Positions 12,202 to 60,600 of a stretch of 64,000 nucleotides of DNA are shown here, one piece after another. Each line of letters opens with the position of its first letter. Position 1 is the stretch's first letter. The position numbers were made by a program, and so were the translations under genes. The stretch comes from Neelides folsomi (lineage: Eukaryota > Arthropoda > Collembola > Neelipleona > Neelidae), in NCBI GenBank assembly GCA_034687125.1, contig JAQGBZ010000151.1, positions 62,001 to 126,000 on the forward strand. The letters run 5' to 3'. The notes below the pieces were generated by a model. That model was not told the DNA's origin. It searched no databases and saw only the letters and a program-made list of their open reading frames with translations.

Positions 12202-12273
12202 TGCCTGTAGAAAATATCATATAGAAGCCAAATTAAATAAAAAACAATCATGATTTTAAAAAAGTTATACTTA

Positions 12274-27700: not shown

Positions 27701-29214
27701 TAAATATACTAAAATAAAACGTTGATCACTAGGCCTGATGGACCCATTACAAGTTGGGATTCGGATGCTGTTGTGACTTGGCTCAATTATTTGGGCCTTG
27801 GAATGTATGCCAATGAAGTTAAACGATGGGTCAAAACAGGCCAGCAGCTTCTTGATGCTTCAACTCCTGAACTTGAGAAAGAGCTTGGTGTAAAGGTGAT
27901 TATTTAACATTAATTAAAAAATTATCAAATTGTTTGAGTTAAGACCAATAAGGCATTTAATATTTTTATTGTCTTTTAAAAGAAACTAGAAGAATTAAAG
28001 TGGAAAATGTAAATATTATTTATTTTTACAGAATATCTTGCACAGGAAAAAGTTAGCTTTGGCTATCCATTCTCTTAAAAATCCCGACGAAGAAGATGCT
28101 GCAGGAAGGCTTGATTATCATTGGGTGATTCGATGGCTGGATGACGTTGGACTTCCACAATACAAAGAATCCTTCGCTGAAGCTCGAATTGATGGGAGAG
28201 TTTTGGGTCAATTGACGGCTGAAGATCTCATTAGTTTGAAAGTCACGAGTGTCCTTCACCACGCGAGCATTAAGAGAGGAATTCAGCTTCTTCGGATCCA
28301 CCGGTTTAATCCGGGTTGCTTATGTCGGAGAAGTGGACCGAATTCAACCTCTGTTCCTGTTCTTCCAAATGGAAATGGAGATTTAGGCCTTGGATTGACT
28401 GGGCCGAAGTATGTGGCTACTTGGACCAATCACCGAGTCATGGAGTGGCTTAAAGCTATTGATTTAGCTGAATACGCACCCAATTTGAGAGGCTCAGGTT
28501 TTTAAAGAATTCAATGTTAAAGATTTAATAATTAATTGACCTTGATATATTTACCTTAATGTATAAGTGTTAAAATGGGTGTATTTTTAATTTAATTATT
28601 TTAAGGTGTTCACGGAGCGCTGATCATTTTTGAACCACGCTTCAATTCGGAGCTTCTCTCAGTTTTACTTTCAATCCCCAATAATAAAACTCTGCTTCGG
28701 AGACATTTAACGTTGCAATTTAGTGAATTACTTGGACGCCATATTGTTCAAGAAAAGCGAGTTCTTGAATTAGCCAGTGAATTTGTGCCGATAAATCCTA
28801 CAACTAAAGTTAAGGTAAACAAGAACAACAAATAAAGAACATTCTTAATATTAAATATGATATTATCTATTTTAATTGGGTTAATCAATTGCTTTGTTAA
28901 TTGTGTTGTTAATTGTTTGTATTTATGTGCAGATATCTGTGAGATCAAAGTTTCCATTACGAAGGAAAAGGATGAGCAGTGAATTTAGCGAAGATCCTAT
29001 TTGTCCCTTGGATTGGAATGTCTATCCGTTTAAAACTGATTCGTTAATGCAGGTATTAATGCTTAAAGATATAATTTTCCTCTTTAAATAGTTTTTTAAT
29101 ATAGAAGTGGATGATAATATTTATCTTTTGTTGTATTTTCAGCTTACGACAATAGAAAATTTAGATGAAGAACCTGGAAATAAAAATGGAGGAGATAAAA
29201 TTAGCATTATTTGA
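24773..29214 (+). CDS. liprin-beta: Liprin-beta (PPFIBP), main body with first exon 1d
   Basis: Scaffold protein of cell contacts and synaptic active zones that pairs with liprin-alpha through its SAM domains. Exons: 24773-25648, 25970-26158, 26237-26551, 26698-27016, 27373-27643, 27733-27895, 28032-28497, 28606-28814, 28933-29052 and 29143-29214, joining in frame to 999 residues. Residues 1-292 are a disordered N-terminus with eight cysteines at 228-280. From 293 comes a coiled coil of about 110 residues (LHLQVSVLSDQIEAQTSKIQ, ELLTRSSLETQKLELL), much shorter than in vertebrates. Then a linker with STSAPNL, SRGIMRILGKLKRSNS and AAPRLGWMREL. The three SAM domains lie near 661-729, 738-805 and 838-905, the last holding the block EYAPNLRGSGVHGALI. 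The C-terminus is short. Exon 1d is the nearest first exon, with ATG after an in-frame stop at 24725. Exons 1a-1c offer other N-termini. Confidence 0.92.
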
Positions 29215-36900: not shown

Positions 36901-38716
36901 CATACTTAAATGCATGAAATGACTTGGCTTTTCCTATTCCCCCAACATCCAAGAGTTCCAAGACTTAAGAGACTCAAGACGAAGGAACGAATGTGAGAAT
37001 GTGAGTTTTAAGGATGTGAGTTGGGAGGTTGGAAAATGCAGCGGAGTCTCCGCTACTTCATTTCGTGCGAGACATCGTTGGGGAGGGCTTGTTTTCCCTC
37101 TCCTCTCATCAGAGTCAGTCAGAGGACGAATCTTACTCCAATTCCACTCACGACAACATTTTAAAATTGAGACTCCTTCAGTCTCCTTCAGTCTTCAATT
37201 GTTTTAGAGGAGTCCTACACCATTCATAAGTTGAACTCTACTATCCCTTGAGTTCTACAAGGGAAGTCTGTCGGGGTGAAGCTTTCAAAAAAGTGTCATG
37301 TGTGCTTTCTTCCCTTTGCTCAAATTGGACATGTTGGGTTCTTGAAGCTCTCTCAATTCTTTCCAAAGATTCTAACTCAACGCCGTTAGTGGAGAACAAC
37401 AATTGTGTTTTTTCTTTTTGTAAAATGAAAGATATATCTTAAAGATATAAAAGAAATTAATTGTATGTGTGGAGAATCAACGTTGTTGGTTTTCATGCTG
37501 ATTGCTCTTGGGGTAAATTAAGTTCACCACCAAGATTTTATTTTTTGACAAACTCTCTCACACCATTGGGGGTTTGTTCTTATTGTTTATGGTTTAAAGT
37601 AAATCGTGTGGTTTTGTGGTCGAACAATTTAAATCTTTAAACTTAACTTAAATGTTTAAATCATATAGAGCAATAGTTACAAAATTTCCCAAATTTTCAA
37701 CTACTTATACTTTATATCAAGTACAACAAATATATAATATAATACATAATAAGAAACATTTAGATTCAATATTAGGAAGTTAAAAAATACAATAAACATT
37801 TAAGTTTCACTCACAGTGATTTAAATCCAAGTGTCAAACGATTGTTTGTTGAGCTTTTGTGACCGGATAATAAAAATCAAGATTTAATTCCTTGAATGCA
37901 CAAACCCAGTTTGAGAGTGTTTAGAAGGAATAAAGATTTGCTTCGACTTTGCAGTCAACATGAAATGGAAAGTGCCATGGAATAAAATGGATTAAGAGGA
38001 TGAGAATGATTACAAATAAAAAACAAGAATGTCAATAGGCGCAAACAATCAGAATTGATATTGAAGAACTTGGAATTCCCAACTTTCAATTTATATCCCG
38101 CTTCTCTTTAATTTCATTTTGTGTGGTGCGGGGAATCTTGACATTTGACATTACAAATCTCCAACTTGGAGTCGACAAAACGAGTGAGGAAAAAAACGTT
38201 GATTATATCCAAGTGCTCCACACTATACTTTGAACCTATCTCCCTTAAGCCAATACCTATACAGGTGAAGTTATCTGCAGTCTATGAGTTCCCTATCGCT
38301 ATCTTTCATTGACCACATCAGGTCCATTCAATTTACATTAAAATAAAGGATCAGCTTGTTGGGGAGTCTTATCAAAGAATCGAAGATCAAGGAATGGAAA
38401 GATGAATAAAATTCTCATTCACACTGAGCGAATATTGAAATCAAACAGCTTCTGATCATTTTGCTTCACATACTGAAACATCTAAACCAATGTTCGCTGC
38501 TGTAGATTTAACTCGTTTTTCCTATATAACTATCAAAGTTATCTGAAGAAAAATTTGTATTGTTTTATATTGTTGTGAAGCAAGTAAGTGAATTAAGTGG
38601 TTGTCCCACACTGTGCAGCCCAAAGAGCTAAAGTGGTTAATTTGACCAAAGTGAGTGTGAGATGGAAAAACAATGAAAACAAATTGCGTTTTTAGATAAC
38701 AAAATCCTCATAAAGG
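30901..38716. other. Intergenic region with alternating composition
   Basis: No frame here is splice-bounded or family-like. Blocks of higher GC (about 31.2-31.7, 33.8-34.0, 35.5-35.7 and 37.0-37.4 kb) alternate with AT-rich stretches. They may be regulatory sequence or non-coding exons, but the sequence alone does not say. The last 200 bases are the likely leader of the exon at 38717; TATATAAC lies at about 38524. Confidence 0.35.
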
Positions 38717-39401
38717 ATGATGAATCCCAGAAGACTTAAGCAATTGAGCAAGAGCAAAGGAATTCAAAAGGGGATTGTGCGGGGCAGAGAAGTTCCAAAA
38801 GAAGTTAGCTGGAACGAGGAAGATTCAGTTGAAAGAGGAACAATTGCCATTCCACCTGATGGTTACTACGACCAGGATTTCAACGACAAGAATTCCTCCC
38901 CGAAGAGTCCTGAAGGCGACTCAGGAAATGGTGACGTTGAGGACGTCGACTCGGGCGGCTCAATAATGAATAAAAGCTACGAGTCAGAGAAGGATAATGA
39001 ATTCAATGAGGAATGTTCCTCAAGTGAGGAATCGAGCGAGAGTGAGAGGACAAAACTCTCAAACTCATATCGAACCTATCTCTACCGGGTGGAGAAGTTG
39101 AAAGAGACCCTTGTGAACTGGGATAAATTCCTCATGCGGAACCACATCACTCGCCCTGACTTCTTCTGCCGTCACAAGGAGAGAGAGAGTCTACAGCAGA
39201 TCGTTGACGAATTCCAAGATGTGACCCGAAGACATAGGGCAGGCCTGGTGGCAATTGGTGCGCTTCCGCCCACTCACCTCATCAGACACAAAGACCGGAA
39301 GTTCGACAGCAGGTCGTTGAGGAGCCATCGGAGGAAGACACATAAGGAAATTGCTCAGAGGAGAAGCAGAAGTCAAATTTCGAGTAGGGATTCCGGGAAT
39401 G
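38717..39401 (+). CDS. Candidate first coding exon of an unknown gene (A)
   Basis: Begins ATGATG after an in-frame TAA at 38711 and runs 228 codons to the strong donor GGGAATG|GTAAGA, phase 1. The first 115 residues are charged and disordered, with acidic and Ser-rich runs (ECSSSEESSESERTKL). The second half looks folded and helical (YRVEKLKETLVNWDKFLMRN, ESLQQIVDEFQDVTRRHRAG) and ends in a basic Arg/Ser stretch. I do not recognise the family. No partner exon is found in the window, so the rest of the gene is probably beyond the right edge. The exon at 50008 also ends in phase 1 and may be an alternative start of the same gene. Confidence 0.6.
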
Positions 39402-42400
39402 GTAAGATCATTTTACTTTTATACATTACCAACCTGTTGCTCATTTCCATTTCTTGAGCAAAGACAATACCACAATGCAATTTGATATTCATTACGCCCA
39501 AGTTCAAGTTTTTTCATTATAAACTAACTAATTCTAATAAATAATAGGAATCAAGAAACTCCGATTTATATCACTTTTAATTTTTTAACGTCTATTTAGT
39601 AGCATATTAAATCTCACGTTAATTCATGCTTTGATCCGAGCTTGGATGCATATTTTGATTGGTCTCAAATTAAAATGACTCGGAGGCTGAATCAAAATTC
39701 CATCGGGTTATTAAATCCGCTTCATTGAGTTGAAAAGGCAAAAAGTGTTAAATAGCGATAATGTTTTATGAGATTAACGTGACTTAAAGAGGAATTTTAA
39801 ATTATGATCTTCACCGTGAAAAGTATTGGAATTTTGTTTATAATAATACGCTCAATATTATACGCTTTCATCATTATTTCATCCTTTTATTGTTATTGGG
39901 TATAAAGGTGATTTACAAGGTGTCAGAAGAGTAGCGATTAAATTTCCATTATAACAAAACCGGATTTAATTCTCTTTCAATCATCTCAATTTCTCAATAT
40001 AGTATTTCTTTCTCATGACTCTACTCAAGAAATTTTTCCAATTTATTAATTTCAATAAAAAAACATTAAAAATTTTATATAGGACTATTTTTTACAATTT
40101 AACCGAATGAATTAATGAATCAACTTAAAATTTTAAAATCAAATTACAGTTTATTGTTTAATGAGGCTTAATGTTTTATCTTAAAAGTTGAGGGTAATTT
40201 AATTGGAAATTCTAAGGTTATGTTTGTTTCTCAGGATTAGGAAAAGATTGGTCACTGACGTGTTGACAAGTGGTTTCCTCTGAACTTATTTAACTTTCTG
40301 GGTAGTGCAGTGGAAGAAAAAGAATGGTCTCGATGAGAGAAACTGGAAGAAAAAGGCTCATTAAATCATGGAACTTGTCCATGACCGATCTTGTAGATTC
40401 GATGTCATTTCGCTCCAACCTCTCGCATAATAATTAGCTTCTGCGTTAATCCCCTTTTCGTCAGACCGAAACATTATATGCAGCTGAGTGAACAACACTT
40501 CTCAATTAGAATTTGACTCCTCTCAGGAATTCTCTTAATCAAGATGATGAACTAATTTAATTACTCAGCGTTAAAACTCAAACTCATTTTTATTTAGAAA
40601 CTTGTACACTTCGATATACTTCACTACAATTTATCTACCTGTATAAGAAACTGATGTAAAACTTTTATCGAAGTTGAACATTTGACATGTTTAAATTCAT
40701 TGGTGTGTAATGACTACTAATTAGTCAAGTTAATTTCCGATATTCAAACATGTGTGTTATAACTAATTTAAATGAACATTTTCTTTCTTTGGCTTGAAAT
40801 CAGGATTTATTTTATTCTTACTGAATGTGAGTTTGATTGAAATATTGTTGGATTACAGTTGGATAACCTTAAGGCTTTAGGTACTTCAAAGTTTTAATGC
40901 GATTAATTAAGAAAAGTTAGTTTGAGGTAGTAATTATATCAAGGATGTTCAAAGCGGCACTTTTTCAACAAACGACAAAAATCATTTCCAAGTTTAAGAT
41001 ACAATTGTAAGTCATGAAAGACATCGATAAAAGAACAATAGGGTGAAATTTTTATCGTTATAGAATGTCCACACGCTAGAAAATGACAGTTCCTCCTTTT
41101 CAGAAACAAAGCAAATGGTTTTCTAAGAATTCTCCTGTTTTTTGTTTAATATTATGAAAGAGTTAAAATATCGTAGGACAATTTCCATCTTTAAAGGTAT
41201 GATATATAACTTATTATACTTTAGGTAGGTAGTAATAGCTAGACATATAACTTGTACATATAATGACTTATAATGACTTATATGACAGAGGCGATACAAA
41301 ACATGCATGTAGATCACAAAGAATAAATGAGGGCTAAATTCGAGATATACCTTAAATTATTTCCAGAGAGTATTTATCAAATGCATGTTGGTTCATATTT
41401 CCAGTAAGATATCGGATTATAAGAGTTAGATGAATTTTATTTTACTAGTCGTAAGGTCTTAACATTTGCTTATTGTTTGGATAAATAATTTCACATTTTT
41501 AGGGTTTATAATTTATAATCCCAAGTCTCTCCGTGTGTGAATGAAATGGGTGAAATAAGATCTCAAACTACTCTTAGGTAGTATGTACAGATAGTATGGA
41601 AGTATTGTATTATTTACTATACCATGGGACGAAATTCATCTTGGATTTCATCCCCAACGTCCTCAAGTGACTCAGAAAACTGAGGAATGACACGGAAGAA
41701 CATTTATAAGGGAGTTGTGTGGTTTTTATAAGAAAAGAGATAATGATGTGTTACTTAAAAGGCTCCTTCTCTCTTGTCCAAAACTCGACTCACCCAGATC
41801 CCAAATCCGATTAGCCGGGGAAGTGAATTTAAGGGCCCTGGTTGAAACTCACAGGGCCGTCGGTTATTTCGTATTGATCAATCCACCTTGTCTTCTCCTC
41901 CCTTCATTCAAACACTCGCTCACCCATAAATTGAGAGATACTGTGTCTTTATATAGGGGATTTTAATTGAGATATTTAATCTCCAAAGGCATGAGACACT
42001 TTCGAGTCTCAAAGTGTCTTTATAGCCAACATGGGCGGAACCACGAGACAAAGATGGATTTCAAAAGGAAAGATCTCTCGACATTCAGAGTTCAAACTTA
42101 TTTTCTCATTAAAAGGACAACCACTCGTCTCGCTTAGAACCTCCCAAGTATTCTTGCCTATTAAGGAGTAAACTTGAGCTCTATTATTAAATATGACAAA
42201 ACAATTACATTACTGAATATAATGATTGAGAGTCTGCAAATATCTGTAGTAAATCATATGATATAATATTTATTTCAAATAAAAAGCCTTCCTTCTCAAA
42301 AGGAATTAACTGAATATTAAAAATACAATTTGATCCCATGTTGCTAAATGGCTTTCTGCATTAGTGGCATAATTTTGAATAAAAGGCATATTTGATACAA

Positions 42401-42579
42401 CCGGATAATCTGTTGTTTCAATTATTCAAATTTTTTAATACGAAAGAATGTAATGTAGGTACTACATACATTTGTTAGTTTAGAATTGCATTTATTTAGT
42501 ATAAAAAATTGAGGAAAGTAAGATATCATACACAGGTAATTATGAATTGATTGATTTACATGATTGATACAAAATTGGT
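39402..42579. other. Non-coding, probable long intron
   Basis: AT-rich, no supported frame. A ten-base direct repeat TAATGACTTA stands at 41261-41280. A GC-richer block lies at 41.6-42.1 kb, with an 83-codon frame that has no splice context or family look. Confidence 0.35.
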
Positions 42580-43145
42580 TTAATAAACATCGTTAGTTTC
42601 TTCGTAGTCGTCTCTAGCTGAACACGAACATGCACAAACATTTTGAGATGGAAAAGAAAGAGTTTCACATTGACCACCAATGTAGAGAAAAACATTTGGA
42701 TTGGGGTTCATTTGCACGCAAAATCGGAAACACGGAGATTCAGTGTCGTAAATACAGCTATCACGGAGTTTCTATCAAAAAGAATAAATTTGTTAATTAA
42801 TAATTTATGAGCTAAATCTTATTAACAATGAAATTTTAAAATTAAGGATAAATGAATAAAATTTACATCACGGCAGTCGCAAACGCAATTTCCAGAATTT
42901 ACATCACAAAAAGTAGCAGAGTAGGAAAATGCTTCTTGTTCATTGCAAGCTTCTTTGCAAATCGGATCACTTCTACTCGTACATTTACGAAGATCTCTTT
43001 CACCTTCTGCCACACGCCCACTCTGAAATCAGCAAATTCTTAATTCTTTCCCATTTTCCTCATTAATTTCACTCATTAAATAGGAACAAGGGACGAAACT
43101 CACCCACAAGAATATTAATCCCCAAATTAACCACAGTGACTTCAT
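42580..43145 (-). CDS. Secreted peptide with two CS-alpha-beta-like cysteine domains
   Basis: Three exons from the 5' end: 43104-43145, 42867-43022 and 42580-42771, all GT-AG and phase 0, giving 129 residues. The first 14 or so (MKSLWLIWGLIFLW) form a signal peptide. Each later exon carries one cysteine domain: C-x7-C-x3-C-x12-C-x6-C-x-C-x-C in exon 2 and C-x7-C-x3-C-x16-C-x10-C-x-C-x-C in exon 3. The C-x3-C followed by C-x-C pattern is that of defensin-like CS-alpha-beta folds, here with a seventh cysteine per domain. Domain 2 also has the GxC start of a gamma-core (GGQC). The mature peptide is acidic (about -8 by my count), unlike typical cationic defensins, so function is open. A 5' UTR intron is likely: ATTTTTTCAG precedes ATC-ATG, and a perfect donor CATTTG|GTAAGA lies at 43624. 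Confidence 0.82.
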
Positions 43146-43624
43146 GATCTGAAAAAATTGAAAAGTGATGAAAAAAGTTTTATAAAGTGGAGGAAGCACA
43201 AGTTTAAACTAGAAGAATTAATCAATGTCATGTGGCCGAGGAATTTAACATAATATTATTCCTCCATGTTATTATAACTCTCTGGCTCCATTGGTTAGAT
43301 AGGTCTAAAGGTCTAAACTCGATCTCTTTAACTTTTATCTGTAAGAAATGAAAATTTTGTACATGTCTGTGAGTAGTTTAAATAAGATATAAATTTTTGA
43401 ATGTATCTCTATTTGTCCCATATACAGAATCTATCTCCATTTACCTACTCTACTTTGACCATTAACAAAAGATATATATTATGTAGAGGAAAAGATATAC
43501 TGTAGGCAAATACAAATAAAATGTATGCACTCTACTATACATGTAATATTGATACCGAAGTGTTTTCTTTAAACGAGGTATAAAATAAGTAGTAAAAACA
43601 GAGTTTATAAAGATTTAATCTTAC

Positions 43625-43685
43625 CAAATGGATTAGAAAATGCACATACTCTTCTAAACTCCTTAGCCCTATTTAAATATATCAA
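43625..43685 (-). promoter_or_regulatory. Candidate 5' UTR exon and TATA-like box of the cysteine-rich peptide gene
   Basis: On the minus strand ATATTTAAAT (43671-43680) lies about 45-55 bases ahead of the donor CATTTG|GTAAGA at 43624. A transcript starting near 43645 would have a tiny first exon, then a 476-bp intron ending three bases before the ATG. A second TATAAAA at about 43178 would be only some 33 bases from the ATG, so it fits less well. Inference. Confidence 0.3.
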
Positions 43686-46600
43686 AATCTAAAAAAGTTT
43701 ACGAGTAATTTCAAATATACTTAATTGTGATTTTTTACAATTTACGTTAGTATAATTAAGTAGTACAATGAAACCGGATAAAAGTCTTAAATAAATTAAA
43801 GCTCAGAATAAGATATTAAATAAGTACATAATTTATAAACTCTAGTAGCCATATTATAAATATATCTTACACTTACATAATATGTACACAACATACATGT
43901 ATGTGCCATACGTATATAAACGAGTAGGTATTAGATTTCCTTAGTGAACATACCCTGGAAAGATAAAGATTCGCACGGATATTGATGGAAAAAAATAATT
44001 TCCCACATTAATGAACCTGGGACTGGCGAAAAGTCCTCTATACATAGAGGCCTTATGAACACAATTGTCAACATTTGAGATTAACATAAGTACACGCGAG
44101 GGAACGACATGTCTCATTAGTTTCAAGTCACTCAAGTTTAAAAGATTCCTTTTACCATTTTAGTGCTTTCATTTCCGCTCATTTACGATTTTATACTTTC
44201 CTAAGTTTCCTACTTTAATTTTCCTTTTCCCTTACAAGTCACACCTTTCAGCACCTTCAAACAATTCCATGAATTTTACATTTTCATGGTATGAAATACT
44301 CGCCATACTTTTATACAGCTTTGAAATATGTAAAATAGTTGCTGGTCTGGTCTTCCCACTCTGTTAATTTTTGTCATTCGAGTTTAATTAATTATTTATT
44401 TCATTGTGATCTTATTGCATAAGCAAACGGAAAAATAAATATACGAAAAATAATAGTGTTATACGATTTATTGCATAATTAAATATACTATAATACCTAA
44501 ATGCTACAATAAATAAGATTGTTAAATATTATTATTTTATGCTGTAATACAATAATATTTTGCAAATATTGCATGCATCTATCAGGTATTAACTATGTAT
44601 GCAATTACATAAGTATGTAACATTATAGTAAATTATTGTTAGTAAAATTGTATTGTATGTAGAACTAAATACATAATACCTATACCTAGTCAGCATAGTG
44701 GAATTGTAGAAAGAGAGACAAAGTTGTTGGACCATCAAGTTCTACACCATCTATGTCAGGGAAAAGGTTTGTTTTTCATTTGTTGTTGGTCGTTTTTTGC
44801 TACAATTCTGCCTCCTGAAGATTCCAAGCGACACCTTCGCTTGAGCCAAAGGGTTTAAACCACCTGAGTACCTGAAGAAGTCAGGAGAGTGTTCCTTCCA
44901 CCTTTGCTACCTGTCTCATCAATTTCTCATCATTTCTCTCATGGATCTTTCTACCTCTCTTGTCACAGTCTCTCTTTTGATTTTTCACTAGGTATATTAC
45001 TATTCACCTTCTTACTTTTAACTCTTTTAGTTATGCTCTTAGGTATAACTGAATAAATTTCAAGTAGGTATGTTAATTTATCGCCTCTCTTTTTATTGAC
45101 AAACCAATATCTTAGATTCAACATACATACGTCAACCGGAGGAAATCAAAGAAATTGTTTAAACAAGTACATTAAAATTATCTCGAACTAAGATATGCAG
45201 AATTTGGACCAAGTAAAATTAATTTTGAGATTAACATTAAAAAATAACGATTCACTCGCAAAGCTCCACACGTTGGTTCTTTTGGCAAATATTGATTTTT
45301 TAATAGTTTCATACATAATTATATTGTGCTTAAAGTCCAAACAACCCTAAAACAGTAATAATGACATATAAGTAAATAGTACAGAGAGAATATCCCCATA
45401 CTAATATGTATTGGTATACATCAACTTACAATTGGAGTATAATTATATCTACTCGGCATGTAATATACAACTTACTACAATTGAGACAAGATACATAAAA
45501 TAGATTTTATTGATTGACACTGGAATAATAAAATAACGTGTATGTAAAGTTAAAACAATATAAAGCAAATTGTTCTTTCTGATTTGATATTCAATGAGCC
45601 CATGTAATTCCCAAATCAATCAAGCAACTTAAAATGAACGGAATAAGCAAATAAGAATTATTTAATCAAGATTAGCAAAGTGGATCCTGTAAGAAAAGAA
45701 GCAAGGTGGGATTGACAATTCTTGTCAAAGATTGGAAAGGAGGAATATCGAAAAGTTCAAGTTTAAAGCTTAAGTTAAAAGCTCGCTCGTAAACTGAAGT
45801 TAGGACAAATGGATCGAGGCGTTGATGTATGAAGATGGCAATCAAAATGGCAAAGTCGTTGGAGGAGTCCGAACGATCCCAATCACCAATCGCCCTCCCA
45901 TTCAACTAATTCTTCCATAATTTAAATCCCCTTAAATAAAAGAGAGCAAATGTCCACAAAGGGAATAAAGAACAATGCAATTACCCCGAGTTCGCCTCTT
46001 CAAAATATTGACAGTGTAAAAGATGTCTTGAGATGTGGCCATAGGATAAGGAAAGTCTTAACCATATAAAAGTTTATATAAACTCTAAACCAACAGCCTC
46101 TTCCCAGTCTCAGGTGTTCAAGTCAATTATTGTTCTTAAATGAAGGGAGAAAAAAACGTTGGTCCCTCCAAGCCCGAAGGGAACTATTTAAAATAATAAT
46201 AAGAAACAGGGATGGTATGTATTAATAAGCTCTTCTCCCTCTCCAACCTAATGGGCACAGCCATTGAAGTACATTTTCTCTCACTCACCTTTTAATGCTA
46301 TCTTATTTCCAAAGAGCTCATCATGTGGCTAATACTCCTCCTAATCAGACCCTCAATGAGCTCAACTGATCACTGGGGAATATTATGCAGCATCTCCCGA
46401 AGTATAAAGGCGAATGGCTTATCTGCCAGCTTTACACTACTGTAATTAATGGACTTTTGTGGAGGAAAATCTGGCAGGATAATCCGAATGAATTGATATT
46501 AACCAGGAGAAAGCAATTCAAAGAGATACATACAATTTTATATACCACCAGAGGCCACAGCATTATTTTCATAAAATCCTACTAATATCTTACTTGCTTC

Positions 46601-49600
46601 CACTTTCAATTACTTAGCATTATACAATTAATAATTATAATTAAATGCAATTACTTAAATTAAGCATAAAACTAACTAGTTAAGGTAAGATATAACATAC
46701 ATACATACTAGAGTACATTGTGGTAACTATTTATATTGGTATTACGAAAGTAAATATAGTACAAATGTTAAGGTATACTACATAGGTAGGTATACACATT
46801 TCAGAATTTAATTACAAGTATGTACATGTACCATATGCACACTTGTTGAAAATGAAAATATTTATATTGTTGAATTTAGAAGCAACAAGTGGAAAAAGTC
46901 CAGAAGATTCGGAGGAGCGAGTCGAATGAGAAACAAAGGGAATTAAAGAGAGATTCCTCTGATTGCAAAGCCCTCGTTCTCTCCGCCTCTTCGTCGAGTG
47001 AATAATAAGAGTGTGTCTCATTTAAAGTCTCAACGAGCGAGCTAGTCCGTCAGCGTCTCATCTCTCTCTGATACACAGAGTTTGTATACAGAGTCGGATT
47101 ATAGATGTAGAAACTGTAGATATATTTTGTCAGTGGTTGTGTAAGATGGGAAAGAGAACAGATTCGAAATACCCTTCGTACCTTCAACAGACAGATTCAT
47201 CCCTCTCAGTCTGTTGGACGAAAAAAAGTTTAAAACTGAGAGAGAGAGAGAGGATTCCGGTTCTGGGAATTGGAATTCATCTACGAATTCTTCCCCTCCA
47301 TGCTTCTTTTAGCCACACAGCGCCCTTTTCCATTTATAAATTCATATCATTTCAGAATCATCCCAATAACTATCAAAACTCTCCCGACCACATATGGGCT
47401 CTTAATACGCAATGAGCCGTTGAGGCTGATGAAGGATGGAATAGGAGAGAGGTTAAAGACGGGCAGAGGGTTGAAATTCATTTTGATTAGGGTTCATCAA
47501 TTGATGGGCGATCAAGTGGGATGAAAAGGAGGGTTTGAGTGGGAAAAAATGTAAGTAGGTAATGAGAAGAGATGGGGGCGGTTGTTATTAAGAGAGGAAG
47601 AAATATGTGGAATGTCGAGTCCCCCACTCCCTCAGCGCTCTTTCACATCATCAATCCAGGCAGCCCACCTCACACACTCATCCGATTAATCAGTGGCAAC
47701 CGTCTAACCCTCCTTTGTTTCTCTCCCTCCCTTCGCCTTTATGTATTTTACTCATCACATCAACGTCCCTCACCAACTGAGGATGCTTCTGAGACTTCAA
47801 CATTTGAGTCTGTTCACAACATTCACATTATTTCAGCTTTTCTTCCAATATTAATGTTTGACCGTTATTATGTACTTTATTTACATACACTTTAGAAAAA
47901 ATAGACATTTGGCTCAATTAGTATTTATTATACGAGTACAAGTATATCGTATATTACATTAAATGGAAATTTTAATATTAAAAATAATTATTGTATTAAA
48001 TTAAAAAAATAGAAATGGGAAAATAGAATTTTGTTCAATTCAATAATTGACAATTTGAATTTTTGTTATTCACTTTTAAATAATAGGAATATCCGAGATT
48101 TGAATCTTGAATTTTCCAACTCCTTCCCTTTATCTTAGCCTGGAAAGGACTGAAAAGAGCTTAAGTTGATAAAATCACCAGAGTCCTTGAGTCTCTCTTC
48201 ACCAATCATCCCTCCTGTCAGCAAGTTGGAGAAGTAACGATCCAATTTACCCTGAAATAAACTGCTCTCGATTCCATTATCTTTTTATTTTCTCGTAGAT
48301 CCACTTCATCAGCTCAATTACACTTCCCTTCAGGAAAATGTAATTAATCCTTTAATTGTTGCACTTGATTGGGCCAAGTTTTCATTCATTGATTCAACAC
48401 CTGATAAGCTTCAGTTCTCCCAATAACCTGATCAAAAAGTTAAATGAATAATATTACTCAATGAATTAATTACATTACATGAATACTAATTCGAAGGCGC
48501 ATTATAGGCGTCTAAATCGCTAAATTGACTTTACTACTTGTTTTCTTTGGCAGTTGGGCGCATTAAATTGTAACGAATTGATTTCAGTTGAATTTAACAC
48601 TATTTATCTATCTCACACTTTTGTGGACCAGAACCATTAAGGAAATCTAATTGATTTATGCCTTAAATGAACCAATTAATTAATTTTTTATAACTTTCAA
48701 TATAAAAAGTTTAAAAATACATGAAATTCTTTACCGATCGACATTGTGAATAAAAAACACCATATTATAACAAATCTACCTACACCCTAGATTTGCATAA
48801 ATATTCTGTGTGATGTTATTATATTAGATAGAAGATATTGAAATCGAGTAGCAAATTCTTTTCTTTAAAATATAACACCTCGGATCCTTATATGAAGATT
48901 GAGGATTATTATAATATGCATAAGTAGCTTTACCATAATGTATGGTATATATCTGTATGTATATTTGAGTTTGCAATTCCATTCCCTCAACATGTCAAAA
49001 AAATAAAATGACTAAAGGTTCAAGATTAGTAATGAGAAAAATATTTGTTAAAATTATTAAACTATGACAGGTTCTCAAATTTAACTATTTCTTGGAAATA
49101 GTGAGAAGGTTAACAATGGTTCTTTGACTCATCCATGTACCATAGAGAAAAGTGATGTAAAATTGTGATCGAAGTAGGATCAACTGGATTCTTGACTCCA
49201 GTTGGATCTCACACCTGTCTTGTGCATTATTCAGACTCCAGCGGTCTGGGAGTCTCTATGATCCCGAGGAGGGCTGTTTTTGTTTTGGACTTGGGATTTG
49301 CCCTCAGGACTCCCAGGTCCTCTCAGCATTATTTAGAGATCTTTGGTAGTGTCGGGAGGAGAGTGCCTACTTGAGCGTACGTATTCGAGCCTGGTAGTTA
49401 AAGAACAGGTAGGTTCTCCCACCGAGACCAAAGGTAGATTTCTAATGGTAAATCCAGCCCTCGGCCCTCTTTCCTACCTCCACATTGTGAGTCCGCAGAG
49501 CCCAAGACCAAGGCCTGAGCAGGTACCGGAGTTAGTTTGGGTCAGGTGCGCGGTCCCTCCACACCTCACGCTCTTCCTCCATTTCCATTAGAATAATAAG

Positions 49601-50007
49601 AAACTGTTCCTTCGCTGTCTCGAATTGAAACTGTCTTAAGCCCAAATTCCCCTCTCCCTCTCACAATAATAGTGTTCATCAACGATCGGAAATTATTCGT
49701 TCTCTTGTGAAGTCAATTAATTACTTATTATGACTCGAGACGTTCATTTGTTCCTGTGTCTTGTTAAACTCTAATTTAACTCCCATTCAATTCCCATTGA
49801 ACGTGTGATGTACTGAACGTCAGTTCAGGTAGGATTGGATTCAGAACTCGGGGTATAAGAAGAAGTAGAATTGGGAGCAAATCTACTCCACTTTTATTAC
49901 ACTGTTGATGTAACCATCTTTTTATGATATGAAGTGGAAGTGTGACTCATTTGGTGAACTTTGAGTGTGGAAACCGGCGGAAGGACTCCTAACGTACAAC
50001 GAATGAA
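43686..50007. other. Non-coding, AT-rich with GC-richer blocks
   Basis: No supported frame. Seen here: a 14-base perfect palindrome ACATACATGTATGT at 43891-43904; a six-base-stem hairpin CAAGCG...CGCTTG at 44825-44843; (ACAT) steps at about 46690-46705; and GC-richer blocks at 45.6-46.4, 46.9-47.8 and 49.15-49.65 kb. A TATAAG at 49854 is about 150 bases ahead of the ATG at 50008. Confidence 0.35.
47238..47252. repeat. Short (GA)n microsatellite
   Basis: Seven and a half uninterrupted GA units. Confidence 0.85.
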
Positions 50008-50113
50008 ATGGCCACAATCGGCTACTCAAAAGTGTTCATTCTGGACAAGTATTTTACCGAGTGGCAGAAATTCTGGGAAACGGAGAAAAAAATCCAAGGC
50101 ATGCATATGCAAG
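50008..50113 (+). CDS. Candidate first coding exon of an unknown gene (B)
   Basis: From ATG (after an in-frame TAA at 49990) 35 codons run to the donor ATGCAAG|GTGAGG, phase 1. The peptide starts MATIGYSKVFILDKYF and goes on TEWQKFWETEKKIQ. It is aromatic and charged, with an even, helix-like pattern and protein-like codon use, so it looks like a conserved N-terminus rather than chance. I cannot name the family with confidence. Its phase equals that of the exon at 38717, so the two could be alternative first exons of one gene continuing past the window. Confidence 0.5.
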
Positions 50114-53100
50114 GTGAGGATATCTTTTGGATCTCCTCAGCTCCTGAACCAATTGATATTTATGACCAAGTCTCGCTTCTTTACTAGAATGAGGTTTTGG
50201 CCATTTGTCAAGCTCATTTCACCCATCAAATAGTTCAGCCTCTGCTAATTACTTTTAACCTCTACTTCAACCTTTTACTTGTCCCATTGATCGGCCTCAT
50301 ATTCTCCTCATATTCTCCCCATAGAATAATATGAGGAGCATGAGTTTATTTAGAATATGATTAGGAAAATAGGTTGGAAATAAAGAAAAGGGTGAGCAGG
50401 AGGAGGTTGCAAGATGCGCTATGTTGAGCCTCATCGCTCCAAGGGACAATCCGACTTGGAAACACTGACTTAATCTCCAACTCGCTCCTTGTGCTCTCTT
50501 TTCCTTTAATCATCACACAAACAGTTTCATACAAATAATATTATGGAAATATTATTTGACTTCACTTGTTACATTATTATTCTCTATCTTTAACAAAAAT
50601 AAATGTCACATGTATTAAAGTATTTGACTTATTGTCAGACTCATTAGCTTCTCAAATGGCTCAAATGTTATGAATTAAATCGGATTTTTGGATTTCATCC
50701 TTCCTAATCCTTACGTGGTAATGATTATAAAGATGACATTGCAAAAAAACACACCATGGGAGAATCAGTCATAAAGAATAATGAACATTTTGAGGTAAAG
50801 ACGTTGGTTGAAAATAAATGTTTTTAGTTCCTTGATTCCATGTTTGAATTCTCTACTTATCTTTCTCTAAAGAGGAATTTTTTGTTTAAGATGGTTTAGC
50901 AAACGAAAAGAACTTCTTATAAGTCTCATGTTCTATTGGATATGTAATGTATTTACAATGCGACTTACTCCTTTGTGCAAGCAGAATTACACGAGTGTTA
51001 ATAAAGCTCAGATTTTACGGGTTGAGCTGGGAAGGCTCGTTTGAAAGAAAACCTCTCATTATGAGAATGTTGGAAGGCGAATTGGGAAAGCCGGCTTTTT
51101 TATAATTTCGTCTTTTATTTGGACATTAGTTGGGAATTGTAGAGTTAGCGTCTGTTCGGTGTTTTTGTCCACTGAGGGAGATCCTGAGGGTGACTGGGAA
51201 AGGTGAGTGGCTCGGGTGAGGATCGTTGGAAGTCAACTTGACTTCTCAGCGGGAAGGGACATAAAATGAGAATAATTTTTCGCCCCTCCAACTCCGAATC
51301 CCATTAAGAGCTCTTGGAATCGCCTTCCTGTTTTATTTGAAGGATTTAATTAAATTTCATGGTCGTAAAGCGGACCTTACACCAAAAGGACACACAGCCC
51401 GCTTTTGAATATTTTGAATAAATAACTATATTTGGTTACTCTCCTCATAAATTTTTGTTTATGAGTAATTTATGCATAATGGCTCTGAACGGATCTTCAC
51501 ACCTAATGCGCCCGTTTGGTTTTTTGAATGTCTGGTCAATTCGCATTATTTCTCAGAGTGGATTTAAATGGTCATTTGGCATTTTGGCAAATATTCGAAT
51601 ACCTCTTTCCTATTGATAAATGCTCATAATATTCCAAAGGATCCTTGGGTTGATTAATGAAGCTGATGCCCCCGCAGAATCTACAAATGCATAAGATCAT
51701 ATTCGCAGAATATTAACGTCGCTTTATGATAAGTTTGATAAGTATTAAATTTTCTTATTAAACGTGATGTGGTACACAAAACGAGAATTGAAATGTGGCA
51801 CTTAAATCTAATGTTACTATTGTACTTCCACATTAACGACATTAGTAAACTGTCACATGGTGAAGAAAGAGGCACTTAAAATACCTGATAGTTAAAAAGG
51901 TCAATCATTTTTATTTTTCACTTTTAATTCCGGATAAGATCTTTGGAGACAACTTAATGCATGGACTATCTTTCTAATCCTATTGTGCTACGTTTCAACT
52001 TTCAACTCGTCTGTGACAACGAGGACTATGAGTCTTTGACAAAATGAAAAGCTTAAATGGAAAATGTCTTTAGCTGGCTTTAACTTTAACTGTCCCTAAG
52101 AGAAAGGTAGTTAAACCCTTCAGTTAAAACCAATGTTCGTAAAACCTTCCATGTAAATACAAAATTGAATAAATGTCGCATGTCACAAGTCTTTCAACTT
52201 CAACATCCACCAATGCGTAAATTGATTTATTAGTTGTTATTCAGTTGTTCAGAATCCCGCTATTGGTTAAATGCACAGAGGAGGAGCAGCTTTTACTTAT
52301 CAAGAGAAAAAGGTTTGAAATACAAATGTACAATAGCGGACCTTTTCATGTCAAATTTCTAATAGTTTTAAGTGGGGAGGATGATCAATCTTCAACTCCA
52401 TTACTTCTCAGGTATACCTAAGTAATGTGTAGTATGATGTTTTAGTAGACAAGAAAGATATAAATATGTTTAACCCTTATATTGAAATACATTGTATTTA
52501 TTTGAATACATAGAACAAGTGTCGTTTAAATGTGAAATGAGGATCGGTCCACTTTGACAAAAACTTTCATCGGATCACTTTGTTTTGGGTTTGTAAATTG
52601 AGGTTAAAGGATATGATACGGAATATCCGATTGACTCCAATGGTCAAATTCTAAAGTTGCCATAATCTTAAAAAGGTCTCCTCATTTTATTCCTTTTAAC
52701 TTGTTTGGAAAGAGAAAGCATTGAGTGGGTTTTGAAGTGCAAACCAAATCCATCCCTCTTTTCAAATGATAAAAATAACACCCAAATGGAACAACGGGAT
52801 AAATGCACTTCAATAAATATAACGAATACCGTCAAACTACTTGGTTTACCTTAACCTAAATCTCACTGTATAAATATTTACTTATATCGATTAAAATTTA
52901 TGTATGAGAAATGTATATGGTATTCGTAATGATCATACATATTATTGTATGTGAAATCATCTTACTTCATAAAGAAAATAATCTTAAATTATAATAAGTT
53001 TTCCAGTTTCAAAATTATTAAGATTTTACCATTTTCCACTCGTCATTCCAAGCCTTTTATTAAATATGTAATAAATGGGTAATGTGATCTGATGATATGA

Positions 53101-56100
53101 AAGAGGAAAAGGACGAGTATCATTTTATCTCGAGGAATTCCGGTTGGTGAATCAATTTGCAAAGTTGTGTTTAATAACCATATCTTGCCGCTTTTATTAA
53201 TTTTGCACAGTATGCAACTCACTTCCTCGCGGAAGAGCTCTAATAAAAACACTTTGTCGGTATTTTGAACTAACTTCTGTCGAAACAACGTCTTTTTACT
53301 CTTTAAAACAAAAGGAAATGTTGTAGGAAACATTCGAAATTCTTTTAAAGAATTCTTCCAAACAGCTCTCAAACATGATTTTAACATCATGGTTTTAGTA
53401 CAAACGGTTCCCATTTGGCGTTCCTTTCAATTTACATGAAGGATTAAAAGAATGTGGAAGTCTGAAACAAAGTCGGAGGAGATTTAGATGTTGAGATATG
53501 CAGTAGCAATGAGATGGGGAAGTGAGCATCGTCATTTAGACTCGTTATATTGCTTCAGATTACTCTTGAAAAGATTACGAAGAGACTCATCTGCGCATTT
53601 TGAGCTACTTTAACTCTCCTACCAGAGAGGTAATCAACCCAGAAGCCTTCAACTTATGAAACAATATTTCTTACGTGGAGGGCAAGAACAAGACGCATAT
53701 CCGAATTGCATTAGGTGGATTATTACAACCCCCTGCAATACACACATATGCTGAAGGTGTTTGAGGTACTTTGGTCGCTCTTAACAAACTTTATTCTTTA
53801 AATTGATTCAATCTCTCAGAAGCTCAGCCTGGCCATGTTGATCCGCTTAATGCGAATATCCATCTACCCATGCATGTGTTTTGAAAGAATTAATTGCTGT
53901 ACAATAAAGTTACCTGGCTCTTTTACACACCTTATCACTGAACAATTTAATTCAACTGGGTGCATTGTCTGTTTATTGACACAATTTGATTTAATTTTAA
54001 CTAATAAATCGTTCAGGATCTTACAAACCTTTTCATTGCCAGGTACTTTTGAGTTGATGTAAGCTGAACTTGAAATTCAAATGATACCTACACTATTTAG
54101 CATTGTAAATAATACAAGACACTATAATTTTCGTTTTATACAAAACAATAGGAATGTTTAAATGAATGAATAATTCATAGTTTAAATTTGACAAGAATTG
54201 TGCATCAACAGAATTCTTTTATTTTTGAGTATATAAAAATGTAATGTCATAACGAATGCTCTTACCTAATTTTATTATAAATATGTAAACATACCTGAGT
54301 AAATATAATGTAAGTATATGGTACAATACTAATTATTTTTTGTTATATTCTATTAAATAGTGATTTTCCCTTATTTGATTCCAATTTTGGTCAAATTGAC
54401 CGGGAGGTTGAGGAGAAAAGGAAAGAATGGAAGGAGGAACGAAAGGTCAAGCAATGGGTCAATTAAGATGAAAAGGCTCAAGGGGCCCGCCTTGTTAAAA
54501 TTCGTATCTCGTCGTTTACTTACCTCTAGATCACACATTCCTCCGGCATCCTCCCCTTCTGCCATTTAATTTACCAGGGAGCAAAAAGCGGAGAAATAAT
54601 GATTTTATTTATGGAAATCGTGAGCCTTTCAAATGGCGGAGGAAGTTGGACACGGGTTTTCAATCCACAACATCCCTTAATTTTTTACTCCTCATACAAA
54701 CACAACATCATTTCATATCCTTTGATCAAGATGACTCTTCTTGATATTCGGAGAATAAACCATACTGATACTTTCCTAGGTATATCATTTTCTTATATTC
54801 CTACTTACCATTATCTCCCTTGCATCCCCTTTTTTGCACTCTTCCTCTCATGAAGTGGGAGCATTGTAGAGTTGTAAAGTTATGGTTTCATGGATAAATT
54901 GAACTTCTCCTATCTTTCCCTTTGGTCATGGGACCATCTCCGGTTTTCTGTATATGTTTTATATGTTGGGGACGAAGGTTTGGATTTTTGGATCGGAGTG
55001 TTATTGGTAAAGGCGAAGAAGTTCACCCGAATCACGCCCATTGGCCCTAGACGTCGCCAGATTGGAACCTCATTTGTAGTCTCTTTTGTTGTGCGAATGG
55101 AGCGGAGGGAGGAAGGATGATGATGAAGGGGCACTTCACCTTCACATTGATTGTCTCTTGGTCCTTCAAGGAACGACCCTTCGGCTCCCTCCCTGCCCTT
55201 TCAAACCTCGGTAATATTTCCACGAGTGTGCGGACAGGCGGGGAGATTTTATGAATGAGAAATAAATGTTTGGGAGTCGAAACTCCTTTTTCACCTCCCT
55301 CATCTCCAAGACCCTCTCGGCTCCTGATCAGACTTCTCACTCCATTGTGAACAAGGCAGTTTGGGCTCTTCATCCGCCGACCATCATTATCATCGGGACA
55401 TGGTTCATGGGCCTTCCTAGGAAATACATAGGGAACCATAATCCACACTCAAAAGAGGGAAAATAAGTGTACGGGGACACAAACAAGAAATGCGGGGCGC
55501 GTATTGTGATCTTATACCTAATGGCTTTTTATTTTGTATATAACCTTTATAAAACCCTCTTTACTGCATGTGCTTAAAGGAGGATGTTGAACTTATTTAT
55601 TAAAGTAATTCTGTTCCCTTATAGGGACCATAGACGGATATGTTTTGTAACATGCTCCTAATACAAACTTGAAACTTGTACTAATTTTTAAATTTTTACA
55701 CAATGTGCTCAATGGGCTTCATTCACTGCGGTATTTCATTCATTCTGGTGACGATAATTAGAAAAAATGTTCAAATTTCTTGGGGTTTGAGTGGAGGGAG
55801 AAAAGTCTCTCCCGTGAGTCAGTTAACACTTTTTAGCAAGATAATTGTTAATTGAATTTAAAGAGGATAGTGCAACTAGAACACCGGAGTGTTAAATATG
55901 GCCAGATGAACATCCCACCCAACTCTCTAATTCCATTTGCACAATAACTAATCCGCTAAATTAATATTGTTATTCTTGTGGCGATAATAGGTATATCAAA
56001 CGATTGACCACGATCTTGTAATGATCATAAACACATGCAAATTTCCATGTTGTTGAATCTTTTCATTAAAATTGAAGAGTTTTCCATGTTGGCAAAACTT

Positions 56101-57558
56101 ATAATTACAGATAAGTGTCACACCTAATTATACTCGTACAGTTCATTTAAATCTGTTTAGTACATTTACAATATTGCATTTACTGCCAGTAGAGTAATTA
56201 TTATAAATTGATACATTTTTCCTTTATTTGAATTTTTTGAAATATATTTATTAATAGTAAATACAGACACAATAACATTTCATAAAATATACATCGATAT
56301 TCTTATATGTACAAATAATATACTAATATTACATGTACAGATTTGATTACATTAGAACAATATTTTTTGTTCACAATTTTATACATTTGCTCGTTTTGAA
56401 ACTATTTTATAGAAAAAATATGAAAACATTTCGTTTTTCAAATGTTGTTAAAATTGTGAATAGAAGTGAAATGGAGTAGTAAAGCAATTTGCCCAATGGA
56501 ACAACCTGAAGTTAATCATAAATGAGGGGTAGAAGGATAACTCAACGTCCCTTCCTGCATACCTGCATGTTCCTCCACACAACGGCCATCCCGAGGGTAG
56601 AGTTTTTCCTCCCTTCCTCCCGGGGCACTTTGCTTTCGGAATAAATAAATGAAATGGTGTTTGAGAAGGGGCTCTTTTGACTCTCGAGGAGAACTGGACG
56701 ACTGGAACCATTTTTACTTGTCCACGCACGGCTGCTGCTCGTCCCCATTAAAGTGAAGGAGACACTCGAACAGGTTGAAAACCTGGAAGTATTTTGGAAG
56801 GAAGAGAATGCGAGGAGTGCAGGGAGAGGTGAAACAGACTCAGGGATTATTTCTCCCTAAGTGGAACATGAAGATTTAACTAGGGAACCAACGCAGAGTG
56901 ATAAAGGTGAAATGAAGTGGGTTCGGCCACGGACGTGTTCTTCTGCATAGTAATACCTTGGTAATACCTCACTGGTCGAGGAAGCCACGATAAATACGTA
57001 TCTCGTTACCCACAAAGCTGATTCACTTTTCTGAAGGGCATTTAAGTCCCTATGCCAAGACCCTTTGTCCTCAACAACCAAAGATATGATATATCTCCCG
57101 GCTTCAAGGACCGTTCAAACTCTTGTCGACCAGGAGAGAAAAAATGGCCACTTGTTGAAGAAGACTCAACGGCACTCCTCTCATTTCCAAATATCTCCCT
57201 CGTCCGCCTCCTGAATGCTCCAACTCTCAGCGATGAAATTGAGGATCGAGTCGAAATATTTAATAACTATATCGATATCTTCAATGAGGAAGAATCCGGT
57301 TAAGAGGGAGGAACAACCGACCTAATAAGTAATCTTACAGACGAGACTATTAACCATACGCTACTACAAAACACTTAACTAGTTGGATCCATATAACTGC
57401 ATGACTTACATATTGTAAATTGTACTCAAATACAGGACTTATACTGTCTTACCGATATATAAATATATCAGTATAGTTAGTATTCATCAGCCGCGAGTTT
57501 TGCCATTTTCCAATATGTAGAGTATTGGATTTAATACCAATAAGTTCAATACCTTGAG
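50114..57558. other. Non-coding, probable intron or intergenic
   Basis: No family-like exon found. A partial tandem duplication CCTCATATTCT occurs at about 50295-50316. A 123-codon minus-strand frame at 53043-53414 is discussed under rejected items. GC-richer blocks lie at 51.0-51.3 and 54.4-55.5 kb; very AT-rich stretches lie at 52.4-53.0 and 55.5-56.4 kb. Confidence 0.35.
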
Positions 57559-57636
57559 TTCCTCCGCGTGAGGAAGGAGGAGGCAACGAATTTAATTAAT
57601 TTTGGGCTTCCTCCGCATATTAAGGAGGTGGAGGCA
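57559..57636. repeat. Pair of hairpin-forming direct repeats
   Basis: Two copies of a unit that starts TTCCTCCGC and ends AAGGAGG...GAGGCA, at 57559-57585 and 57608-57636, separated by 22 bases. Within each copy CCTCC can pair with GGAGG across a loop of about 9-10 bases. The loops differ while the arms are kept, which hints at selection on the paired form or on a repeated binding site. Confidence 0.65.
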
Positions 57637-60600
57637 GAAATGAAATGCCAGGGTCAATTACATGGATTGCATGGAGACTTCTCATGTCAGTGATGGAAGT
57701 GGTGATTTTGGCTCGGAGGAACCTTTCGAACCAAACACTCAATTGGGTTGGGCTCTTGCGAGTATTCTAATATCAGAGCCGATTCCTAATAACACCTTTA
57801 AGATGAGATCTCACGATAAGGGAAAAGATTTCATTCCGTGTCTCTCCAATCTCAAGACAATCCAAACTCATACACACGAAGTTGAAGAAGGGCTGAATAT
57901 ATTTTTACACGTATTGCCTTTTATCTAATGGCTCCTCCGACCACAAGAAGAAGTGAGGTGGAAAGCAATCTGTCTGGCCCAAGATTGACATCCATATAAA
58001 TACATGGGAAGTTAAATAGTTATATACTTTCTGGAGGAGTCTGGTGGGCTAAGGGGTTTCAATTTATCTCCATGTGCATTTACATCCCTCACTTTATGTT
58101 CTTAGGACCATAAATGCAGAGATATATTTAGGGCGGTTATGTGAGTGTGAGTAAATAATATATTGTCTTGTGCGTATATTAACTACATAGAGGTGAGGAT
58201 TTTTAAGGGCTCTTCTCCTCCACTCATTGTCTTCTTGTTTGGGAGTTATGAGGAGATGGAGGGAGGGCCGGCCAAAAAATCATTATCATCTCTGGCCGAC
58301 TTGGTATCCTATAATCATCATCTGATTGCAGCCCGCCTCGTCCTCACTGGGGGGTGCAGGGAAAAGAGTGAAGGGCCGAAAACAAGAGAAAGCCCCAAGG
58401 TCTCACCAACCCCGCACAAAAAGACCGAAAGAAAGGAGGAAGGACAGTAATTTTTTGTGGTCCCTTTTCCCACATCCAACCCTCGTCGACAGACACCGCA
58501 GTTAGGCGCAGTTCCATTGAGATACACCAGGATGTGTATAAAGAATCATCACAACTTGGAACGGCCATATAAAACCCTAAGGATTACATATCTAATTCTA
58601 CATATCTCTTCTCGGCGGATCTCGATGAGTAGGAAAGGTGTGGCGGGGAGAAAAAATCATTTCTGGATATATCCTCCTTGGCCCCTCGACCATTGTTTCT
58701 CCCCGACCACCCATCAAGATTTGGGAAACAACCCATGTGATCTTAAATAGGAAAATAAAATGAATTGCCGCAACCATCAAAGCCTGTCCTTCCCCTTTGT
58801 CCCACAATGACATTCAACAGGTGTTTGCAAAAATACTTCTAATACCCACAATAAAGTACGAGTACTCGTACAGCAATATACTTCATATTGTACACGCGGG
58901 TTAAATATGACAAAGGTCTACTCGGATACTCAATTTCAACTTTTATGTTCAATTTAACAAATGGATGGTCATTCACTTCAAGTTTGACAATTTCTTATCT
59001 TGGCTGTATTTGGGGTACATTTGAAACTCCATCGTCTTATACGAAGCATTTAAATGTAAATATTACCTACCTATTTAACCAAAGATTCTGTATATGTAAG
59101 TAGTATTGGGCATTATGTACTCGGCTCATATATTTTGTATTTATAAATATAATAAGGTCTATGGAGTCATATAAGAAGTAATAAGGTTTAATGCAAAGCG
59201 ATAAAAATTTTTGCAATTTTAATTAATCTGCGAGATCCTTGTTGAATTAAAGTTTTCTTTGTCAATTAGAAAAGACCGCCTCAGCAGCATCTTCATTGGG
59301 CCCCATAAATTATTATGACTGAGAGACGCCTCACATAAATATAAATTTTTCCTTTCGAGAGGACAAAAGACGTTCTTTATTTCCTTGAGAAGAATGGGCA
59401 GGATCAACATGTGAAGTTATATGGAAAGTGAGGTCCCGTTAAAAAAGAACCTGGGAGGCGAAATGGCCCTTTCCGCGCCGAGACGCGAATGTGGGATGAC
59501 AATGGCTATATTTATAGAAACGGCTCATTATTTTCATTCGGCCAAATTGAGTGGAGAGAAATAAGTCAATTATCCTCGCCAGTTGGGCTTTTGGAAATGG
59601 AATTAAAGGAGATTCCATTTTACACCTGTTGGTCCACCTGTCCACTTTCAATACACAAATCCATGTATTCTATCACAATTTAACCCATCCATTCTCATTT
59701 TCGAATGGCCATAAAATGGAAAGTTGTAAATTAATGCATAAATTGCCCATTCCTTAATCTTTCGCTTAATTAGGACGAAATAATTGGATTTTGGTAACTT
59801 AACGACTAAATTAAACATATTCCTTTTATCTTTATTGAACATTTCTTTATCTTTATTTTATTTCAAGATGTTTGCAATTACACGAGCTATAGATATTTAT
59901 GTATATTTTTGTGAATCTGTATAATCTGCAGATGCAAGTTGACAATTAATTTCTTTGGGTATCAAAATTCATTTGAAATGTGACACTTAAAGGCGGATGG
60001 TTAGCAAAGTTGGTATGAGAATTATTCATGTGTAGCGTTTAGGAAAATGGACACATTGCGTGCTGGGAAGCTGTTCTCAGCTTGAAACTGTCTTGATTTA
60101 TTGACTGATGGGAGTTGGAGGTTGAGTAGGCGGCTTGGAATACTCTCCACCAAACCCCACCACAAACACGTCTTCCCCATCCTTTATAGGTTAAGAAGCA
60201 GTTGGAAATGCAAATAGGAAACTGGACAAGTCTCCCATCACATCTCGTAACTTTCCATGTCAGATAAATTTGGTTCTTCAATGAATCTGCCAGGCGGGGA
60301 ATGCATAAGCATAATAAAGAAGTTCCAGAGTGACGTTCTAATAATCCATGCTAATCTTTCGCCTCCTCATTCTTTAGCACTTAAATGCCGAGAGAATGTT
60401 TTCCCTCAGGACTCGCTTAATTATTAAACCATATTAACCTTCATAAATTATTTCTTGACCCTAGAGTGTGAACCTGTTCAAAAATCAGTCAAATGAAATA
60501 CCACTAAAGCTAATCAACTCGACCACAAATCCACTCAATAGAGTTTTTAACCATCTAAATAAATATAATTTATTCCCTTGTATTTTGTAGGAGTAGGTAC

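Follow-up and report, generated by a model that had tools for sequence, protein, structure and literature searches.

How could two small cysteine-rich modules, each encoded by its own exon, be joined into one secreted protein? The question is raised by a short gene in a 64,000-nt stretch of DNA from the collembolan Neelides folsomi (contig JAQGBZ010000151.1; the whole stretch is called the window), where it occupies 43145-42580 on the minus strand and has a predicted product of 129 amino acids. We refer to this two-domain defensin-like gene as the window gene.

A probable family of two-domain genes

The translated exons bear out a preliminary description of the locus in its outline: the product is two-domain, defensin-like and acidic, exons 2 and 3 each encode one domain with the frame C-x7-C-x3-C ... 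C-x-C-x-C, and each domain holds seven cysteines (Table 1). The two introns of the gene, of 81 and 95 bases, have GT-AG borders and lie in phase 0. The isoelectric point is ~4.3 and the charge ~-8, both computed from a mature start of our choosing, and no Lys or Arg stands between the GGQC motif and the last cysteine. G+C falls at third codon positions to 0.23 in exon 2 and 0.28 in exon 3, against 0.42 to 0.54 at positions 1 and 2, as expected for coding DNA in an A+T-rich genome; short exon 1 departs from this pattern, with 0.57 at third positions. Written as C-x4..12-C-x3-C-x8..20-C-x3..12-C-x-C-x-C, the cysteine frame has two matches across the six reading frames of the window, each within the window gene, and none in 200 dinucleotide-preserving shuffles. 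Since the gene had already been seen when the pattern was written, this is a check and not a blind test.

Direct searches gave nothing: the window gene protein matched no Pfam family even at an expectation value (E) of 10 and no sequence in the PDB, and its exons, run against the 75.1 Mb, 840-contig genome, found only themselves. Relatives were traced from profiles. The Pfam Defensin_2 profile, which also rings in 3 of 14 control genomes, gave one weak match (17.5 bits, E 0.41, under the cut-off) on contig C336, and the exons adjoining it carry C-x3-C ... C-x-C-x-C. The Gamma-thionin profile gave six matches, the only one above cut-off being a canonical one-domain gene on contig C365. Protein searches from the C336 exons, together with the Gamma-thionin profile, led to four genes: C336A and C336B, in tandem ~0.8 kb apart, C46, and C54, for whose model one of two possible acceptors was chosen. 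Each has a short hydrophobic exon, then a domain-1 exon, then a domain-2 exon, like the window gene, and all introns of the five genes (10/10) are GT-AG and phase 0, unlike the phase-1 intron of the canonical C365 gene (one modelled). The one-domain-per-exon, phase-0 plan of the preliminary description is thus common to four other genes of the genome. Because these share its layout, the window gene looks less like a one-off than like a divergent member of a family that counts at least five genes here.

Judged by their sequences, the four relatives are clearly related among themselves, through their second domains (C336B with C46, E 2e-10; C46 with C54, E 9e-8) as through their first (C336B with C46, E 2e-5; C336B with C54, E 7e-5). 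All three second domains tested against Pfam give a defensin-type family (E 0.003 to 0.14), none above the curated cut-off; against PDB sequences, defensins are among the weak matches of two of the three, with none for the third. Charge, computed in four members, is lowest in C336B (-31, long tail included) and highest in C336A (+8), and acidity is not a family trait.

Further cysteine-rich loci were observed along the way. In C336B the long tail combines an acidic stretch with a glycine-rich hydrophobic segment and a terminal portion rich in Pro, Ser and Tyr, and the sole Pfam match of the whole last exon is a weak Gamma-thionin match in its domain. Contig C365 has two adjoining canonical one-domain defensin exons, the second in the phase-1-intron gene. 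On C324, two nearby reading frames encode cysteine-rich domains that closely resemble each other and end in C-x-C-x2-C; they may be like nematode ABF-type peptides. On C256, a defensin-like exon precedes a minimal C-x3-C-x5-C-x-C-x-C piece whose tail is acidic; the pair is possibly another two-domain gene.

Fold, cysteines and likely function

Are the two domains defensins in fold? The framework of cysteine-stabilised alpha-beta (CS-alpha-beta) defensins is C1...C2-x3-C3...C4...C5-x-C6, with bonds C1-C4, C2-C5 and C3-C6 (PMC5234102; this and the other cited papers are drawn on in extract), and both window gene domains show this framework plus an added seventh cysteine. AlphaFold gives a helix-strand-strand order for both. 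For domain 1, one of five models was good and usable, its best structural matches, although weak, are CS-alpha-beta proteins, and a CS-alpha-beta fold gains some support from the two. The domain 2 model has low confidence and the same element order, and compared with solved structures it matched no fold; a CS-alpha-beta fold of this domain would follow from its cysteine pattern, its GGxC and that order of elements. Structure prediction, which the preliminary description had named as a check of its reading, points to the fold in domain 1 and, at low confidence, to its order of elements in domain 2.

Stricter marks of classical defensins are missing. The full invertebrate pattern C-x4-15-C-x2-H-C-x6-9-G-x-C-x4-9-C-x-C (PMC6435467) finds no match in the window gene: neither domain has a His before C3, G-x-C is absent from domain 1, the C3-C4 loops of 12 and 16 residues lie above the 8-11 allowed, and the C4-C5 loop of domain 2 has 10. 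Scorpion and other mollusc/arthropod defensins are described with a phase-I intron before the mature-peptide exon (PMC6435467); the corresponding intron is phase 0 in the window gene and its four relatives, and phase 1 in the one canonical C365 gene. The Pfam families Defensin_2 and Gamma-thionin do not take in the window gene, which matches no family up to E 10, and the relatives match below the curated cut-offs; the window gene product lacks the net positive charge of cationic antimicrobial defensins.

Could the window gene, then, derive from another small cysteine-rich secreted family and merely resemble CS-alpha-beta genes? Convergence of the cysteine frame would fit the absence of Pfam and PDB sequence matches and a domain 2 model that resembles nothing relevant, and several further results weigh against kinship with the four relatives. 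Profile hidden Markov models built from three or four relatives did not score the window gene domains above shuffled copies; hhalign returned a P of 0.0025 but a probability of 11.8; and in BLASTP of single domains, where window gene and relatives gave E 8e-4 to 0.049 (ten sequences compared, no correction for composition), the best partner of domain 1 was a relative's second domain. Nor are the two window gene domains significantly alike (BLASTP E 0.43), with 25% identity and cysteines in 7 of the 10 identical columns. What ties the window gene to the family is its gene layout and cysteine frame, more than its residues. However, convergence would have to reproduce the three-exon phase-0 layout and domain positions of four genes, three of whose second domains give weak defensin matches, as well as the C-x-C-x-C ending found in all first domains and in 2/4 second domains of the relatives, and the CS-alpha-beta element order of both models. 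We consider it quite unlikely. As for the earlier proposal that the gene arose by duplication of a phase-0 exon, it keeps indirect support, but with domains so little alike the duplication is old or not shown.

If the window gene belongs with its relatives, what is the seventh cysteine for? An odd number of cysteines (five or seven) occurs in 10/10 domains of the five genes, or in 9/10 when whole last exons are counted, C54 having an extra one in its tail; the genes being related, ten domains are not ten independent observations. Four of the five first domains lack two cysteines, and by alignment on C-x3-C and C-x-C-x-C the missing pair is C1 and C4. Because these two are bonded to each other in CS-alpha-beta proteins, their joint loss is what the fold predicts. 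A cysteine is left over in both domains of each gene, which suggests a bond between the domains. The notion that free seventh cysteines could bridge them, already voiced in the preliminary description, gains support from the odd counts; the bond would still be a deduction from them, and it amounts to a direct disulfide prediction. Alternatively, the odd cysteine may link two molecules into a disulfide dimer, or take part in a rearranged pairing inside one domain. The place of this cysteine varies, C6-x1 giving way to C6-x8 in the second domains of C336A and C54; an odd number in both domains of every gene, however, is simply explained by an intramolecular bridge, and we find these other pairings unlikely.

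We therefore prefer the bridge between domains, and envision the window gene product as secreted, with two CS-alpha-beta (cis-defensin-like) modules in a row. As elsewhere among CS-alpha-beta proteins, each module would be closed by bonds C2-C5, C3-C6 and C1-C4; the seventh cysteines, one left over per domain, would pair with each other, yielding a rigid two-headed extracellular protein. This structure seems to us probable, if well short of certain.

What such a protein would do is harder to say. Because of its charge of ~-8 and the lack of Lys and Arg from GGQC to the last cysteine, we favour a neofunctionalised binder whose target would be a specific extracellular ligand, with a role in defence or signalling, over a cationic peptide that permeabilises membranes; we would give this about an even chance. 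The same two-module protein could also be an ordinary antimicrobial or immune defensin variant that mainly kills microbes, local charge patches balancing its acidity. Canonical single-domain defensin genes (C365) are present in the same genome, one family member reaches +8, and antimicrobial or antifungal action is described for the double defensins AvBD11 and MtDef5, the former being negative in some birds; but the acidity and missing basic residues that favour a binder count against a microbe killer, as does the need of MtDef5 for the His and Arg of its gamma-core motifs (PMC5700942), and we judge this variant unlikely. A gland secretion (saliva or similar) aimed at another organism is very improbable: the CS-alpha-beta scaffold is described as recruited into venoms elsewhere, but nothing in the window speaks for such a product. 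The binder thus keeps our preference, and we tentatively place it, at somewhat less than even chances for the whole, in a lineage-specific double CS-alpha-beta class whose modules would be locked by a conserved interdomain bridge, the first module keeping just two internal disulfides in most members and the acidic member acting as a two-headed binder.

The locus and its surroundings

Three elements read from the DNA upstream of the window gene suggest a 5' untranslated region (UTR) exon: a TATA-like box, a GTAAG donor at 43624 and, 3 bases ahead of the ATG, a CAG acceptor. The preliminary description had placed the gene between the first exons of another gene. This could not be upheld, as Pfam and PDB searches of the flanks made no containing gene evident: the six frames of 44001-58900, both strands, gave no Pfam match at E 0.01, and the open reading frame (ORF) at 38714-39454 gave no Pfam match and no significant PDB match. 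Two other ORFs of the window encode WD40 repeats and SAM domains.

Elsewhere in the genome, contig C509 has reading frames that encode C2H2 zinc-finger proteins; the N-terminal part of these presumably resembles a ZAD domain. The mitochondrial contig C742 has 15157 bases and the gene order nad2, cox1, cox2, atp6, cox3, nad3, nad5, nad4, nad4L, nad6, cob, nad1, where COX1 was found by profile and the other genes were named by eye from translations. About 40 bases separate cox1 from cox2, too few for a transfer RNA (tRNA) gene; such an arrangement is typical of chelicerates or myriapods rather than of insects or crustaceans. ARAGORN, run with the bacterial code, reported one tRNA only; the tRNAs may thus be truncated, or missed by that setting.

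Table 1. Features of the window gene, cysteine spacings in its relatives, and positions of other loci
Feature	Position (strand)	Description
TATA-like box (putative)	43669..43679 (-)	TATTTAAATAG; candidate promoter, read in sequence
5' UTR intron (putative)	43149..43624 (-)	donor GTAAGA; acceptor TTTTTTCAG directly ahead of ATCATG
Coding exon 1	43104..43145 (-)	MKSLWLIWGLIFLW; 14 codons; hydrophobic, putative first part of signal-peptide-like start; donor GTGAGT, phase 0
Coding exon 2, domain 1	42867..43022 (-)	seven cysteines, spacings 7,3,12,6,1,1; both ends phase 0
Coding exon 3, domain 2	42580..42771 (-)	seven cysteines, spacings 7,3,16,10,1,1; GGQC motif; acidic tail; TAA stop
Polyadenylation-like signal	42491..42496 (-)	AATAAA, ~85 bases 3' of the stop, read in sequence
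C336A		domain 1: 3,14,1,1; domain 2: 7,3,10,5,1,8
C336B	C336:64786-65658 (L006 886-1755)	domain 1: 3,25,1,1; domain 2: 5,3,13,5,1,1
C46		domain 1: 3,25,1,1; domain 2: 5,3,12,5,1,1
C54		domain 1: 3,19,1,1; domain 2: 5,3,10,4,1,8
Canonical defensin exons	C365:49798 and 50768 (L028 3248 and 4158)	
C324 reading frames	L021	
C256 exon and minimal piece	L027 2549 and 3264	
Window ORF, WD40	10954-12216 (-)	
Window ORF, SAM	27999-28502 (+)	
C509 zinc-finger frames	L012	
Mitochondrial contig C742	L024, L025	

Comparison with known defensins

How much of this is new? The preliminary description spoke of an undescribed family, which is right in part. One exon per defensin domain has precedents in nasonin-6 and AvBD11, and fungal defensin-like genes can have a phase-0 intron where the signal peptide ends; the whole combination was not found. 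Searches of an open-access library (titles and abstract openings, most subscription journals lying outside) showed no two-domain CS-alpha-beta gene with C-x-C-x-C endings, which is weak evidence of absence.

The closest arthropod parallels are nasonin-2 and nasonin-6 of Nasonia vitripennis (PMC2853521), likewise CS-alpha-beta defensin-like with several domains per protein, each domain of nasonin-6 being a single exon. The comparison is at the level of description: the nasonins have four to five repeats and phase-1 introns, unlike the window gene with its two domains, phase-0 introns, seventh cysteine and net negative charge. BmKDfsin scorpion defensins (PMC6435467) are secreted arthropod CS-alpha-beta peptides too, and canonical one-domain genes of this sort also occur in this genome, on C365; they differ in having one domain, six cysteines, one phase-I intron, and the C-x2-H-C and G-x-C rules that the window gene follows only in part.

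Outside arthropods, the avian double beta-defensin AvBD11 (PMC9138766) has a signal exon followed by two domains in separate exons, low identity between them, and a charge that varies by species and is negative in some, as among the family of the window gene; its beta-defensin (trans) fold is unrelated, and it is described with 12 cysteines in six bonds and no odd cysteine. The bi-domain plant defensin MtDef5 also puts two defensin domains in one secreted protein, but it is highly cationic and antifungal, with 50-residue domains and a 7-residue linker (PMC5700942). Fungal Zytrisins (PMC5234102) share the CS-alpha-beta framework and the phase-0 intron at the signal-peptide end, and their homology was judged by gene structure despite changed cysteines; they are described with a single domain and a further phase-2 intron inside it.

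Given nasonin-6 and AvBD11, multi-domain defensins in which each domain has its own exon, the principle of the window gene is known, and its variant appears new as far as searches of an open-access library show. Multi-motif defensins are described as rare in vertebrates, and their gain as an unanswered question (PMC9138766). Five genes of a single small genome, whose charge spans -31 to +8 across the four members computed and whose first domains stand at two different levels of cysteine content, form a natural series in which one can ask whether selection keeps the locking of two modules.
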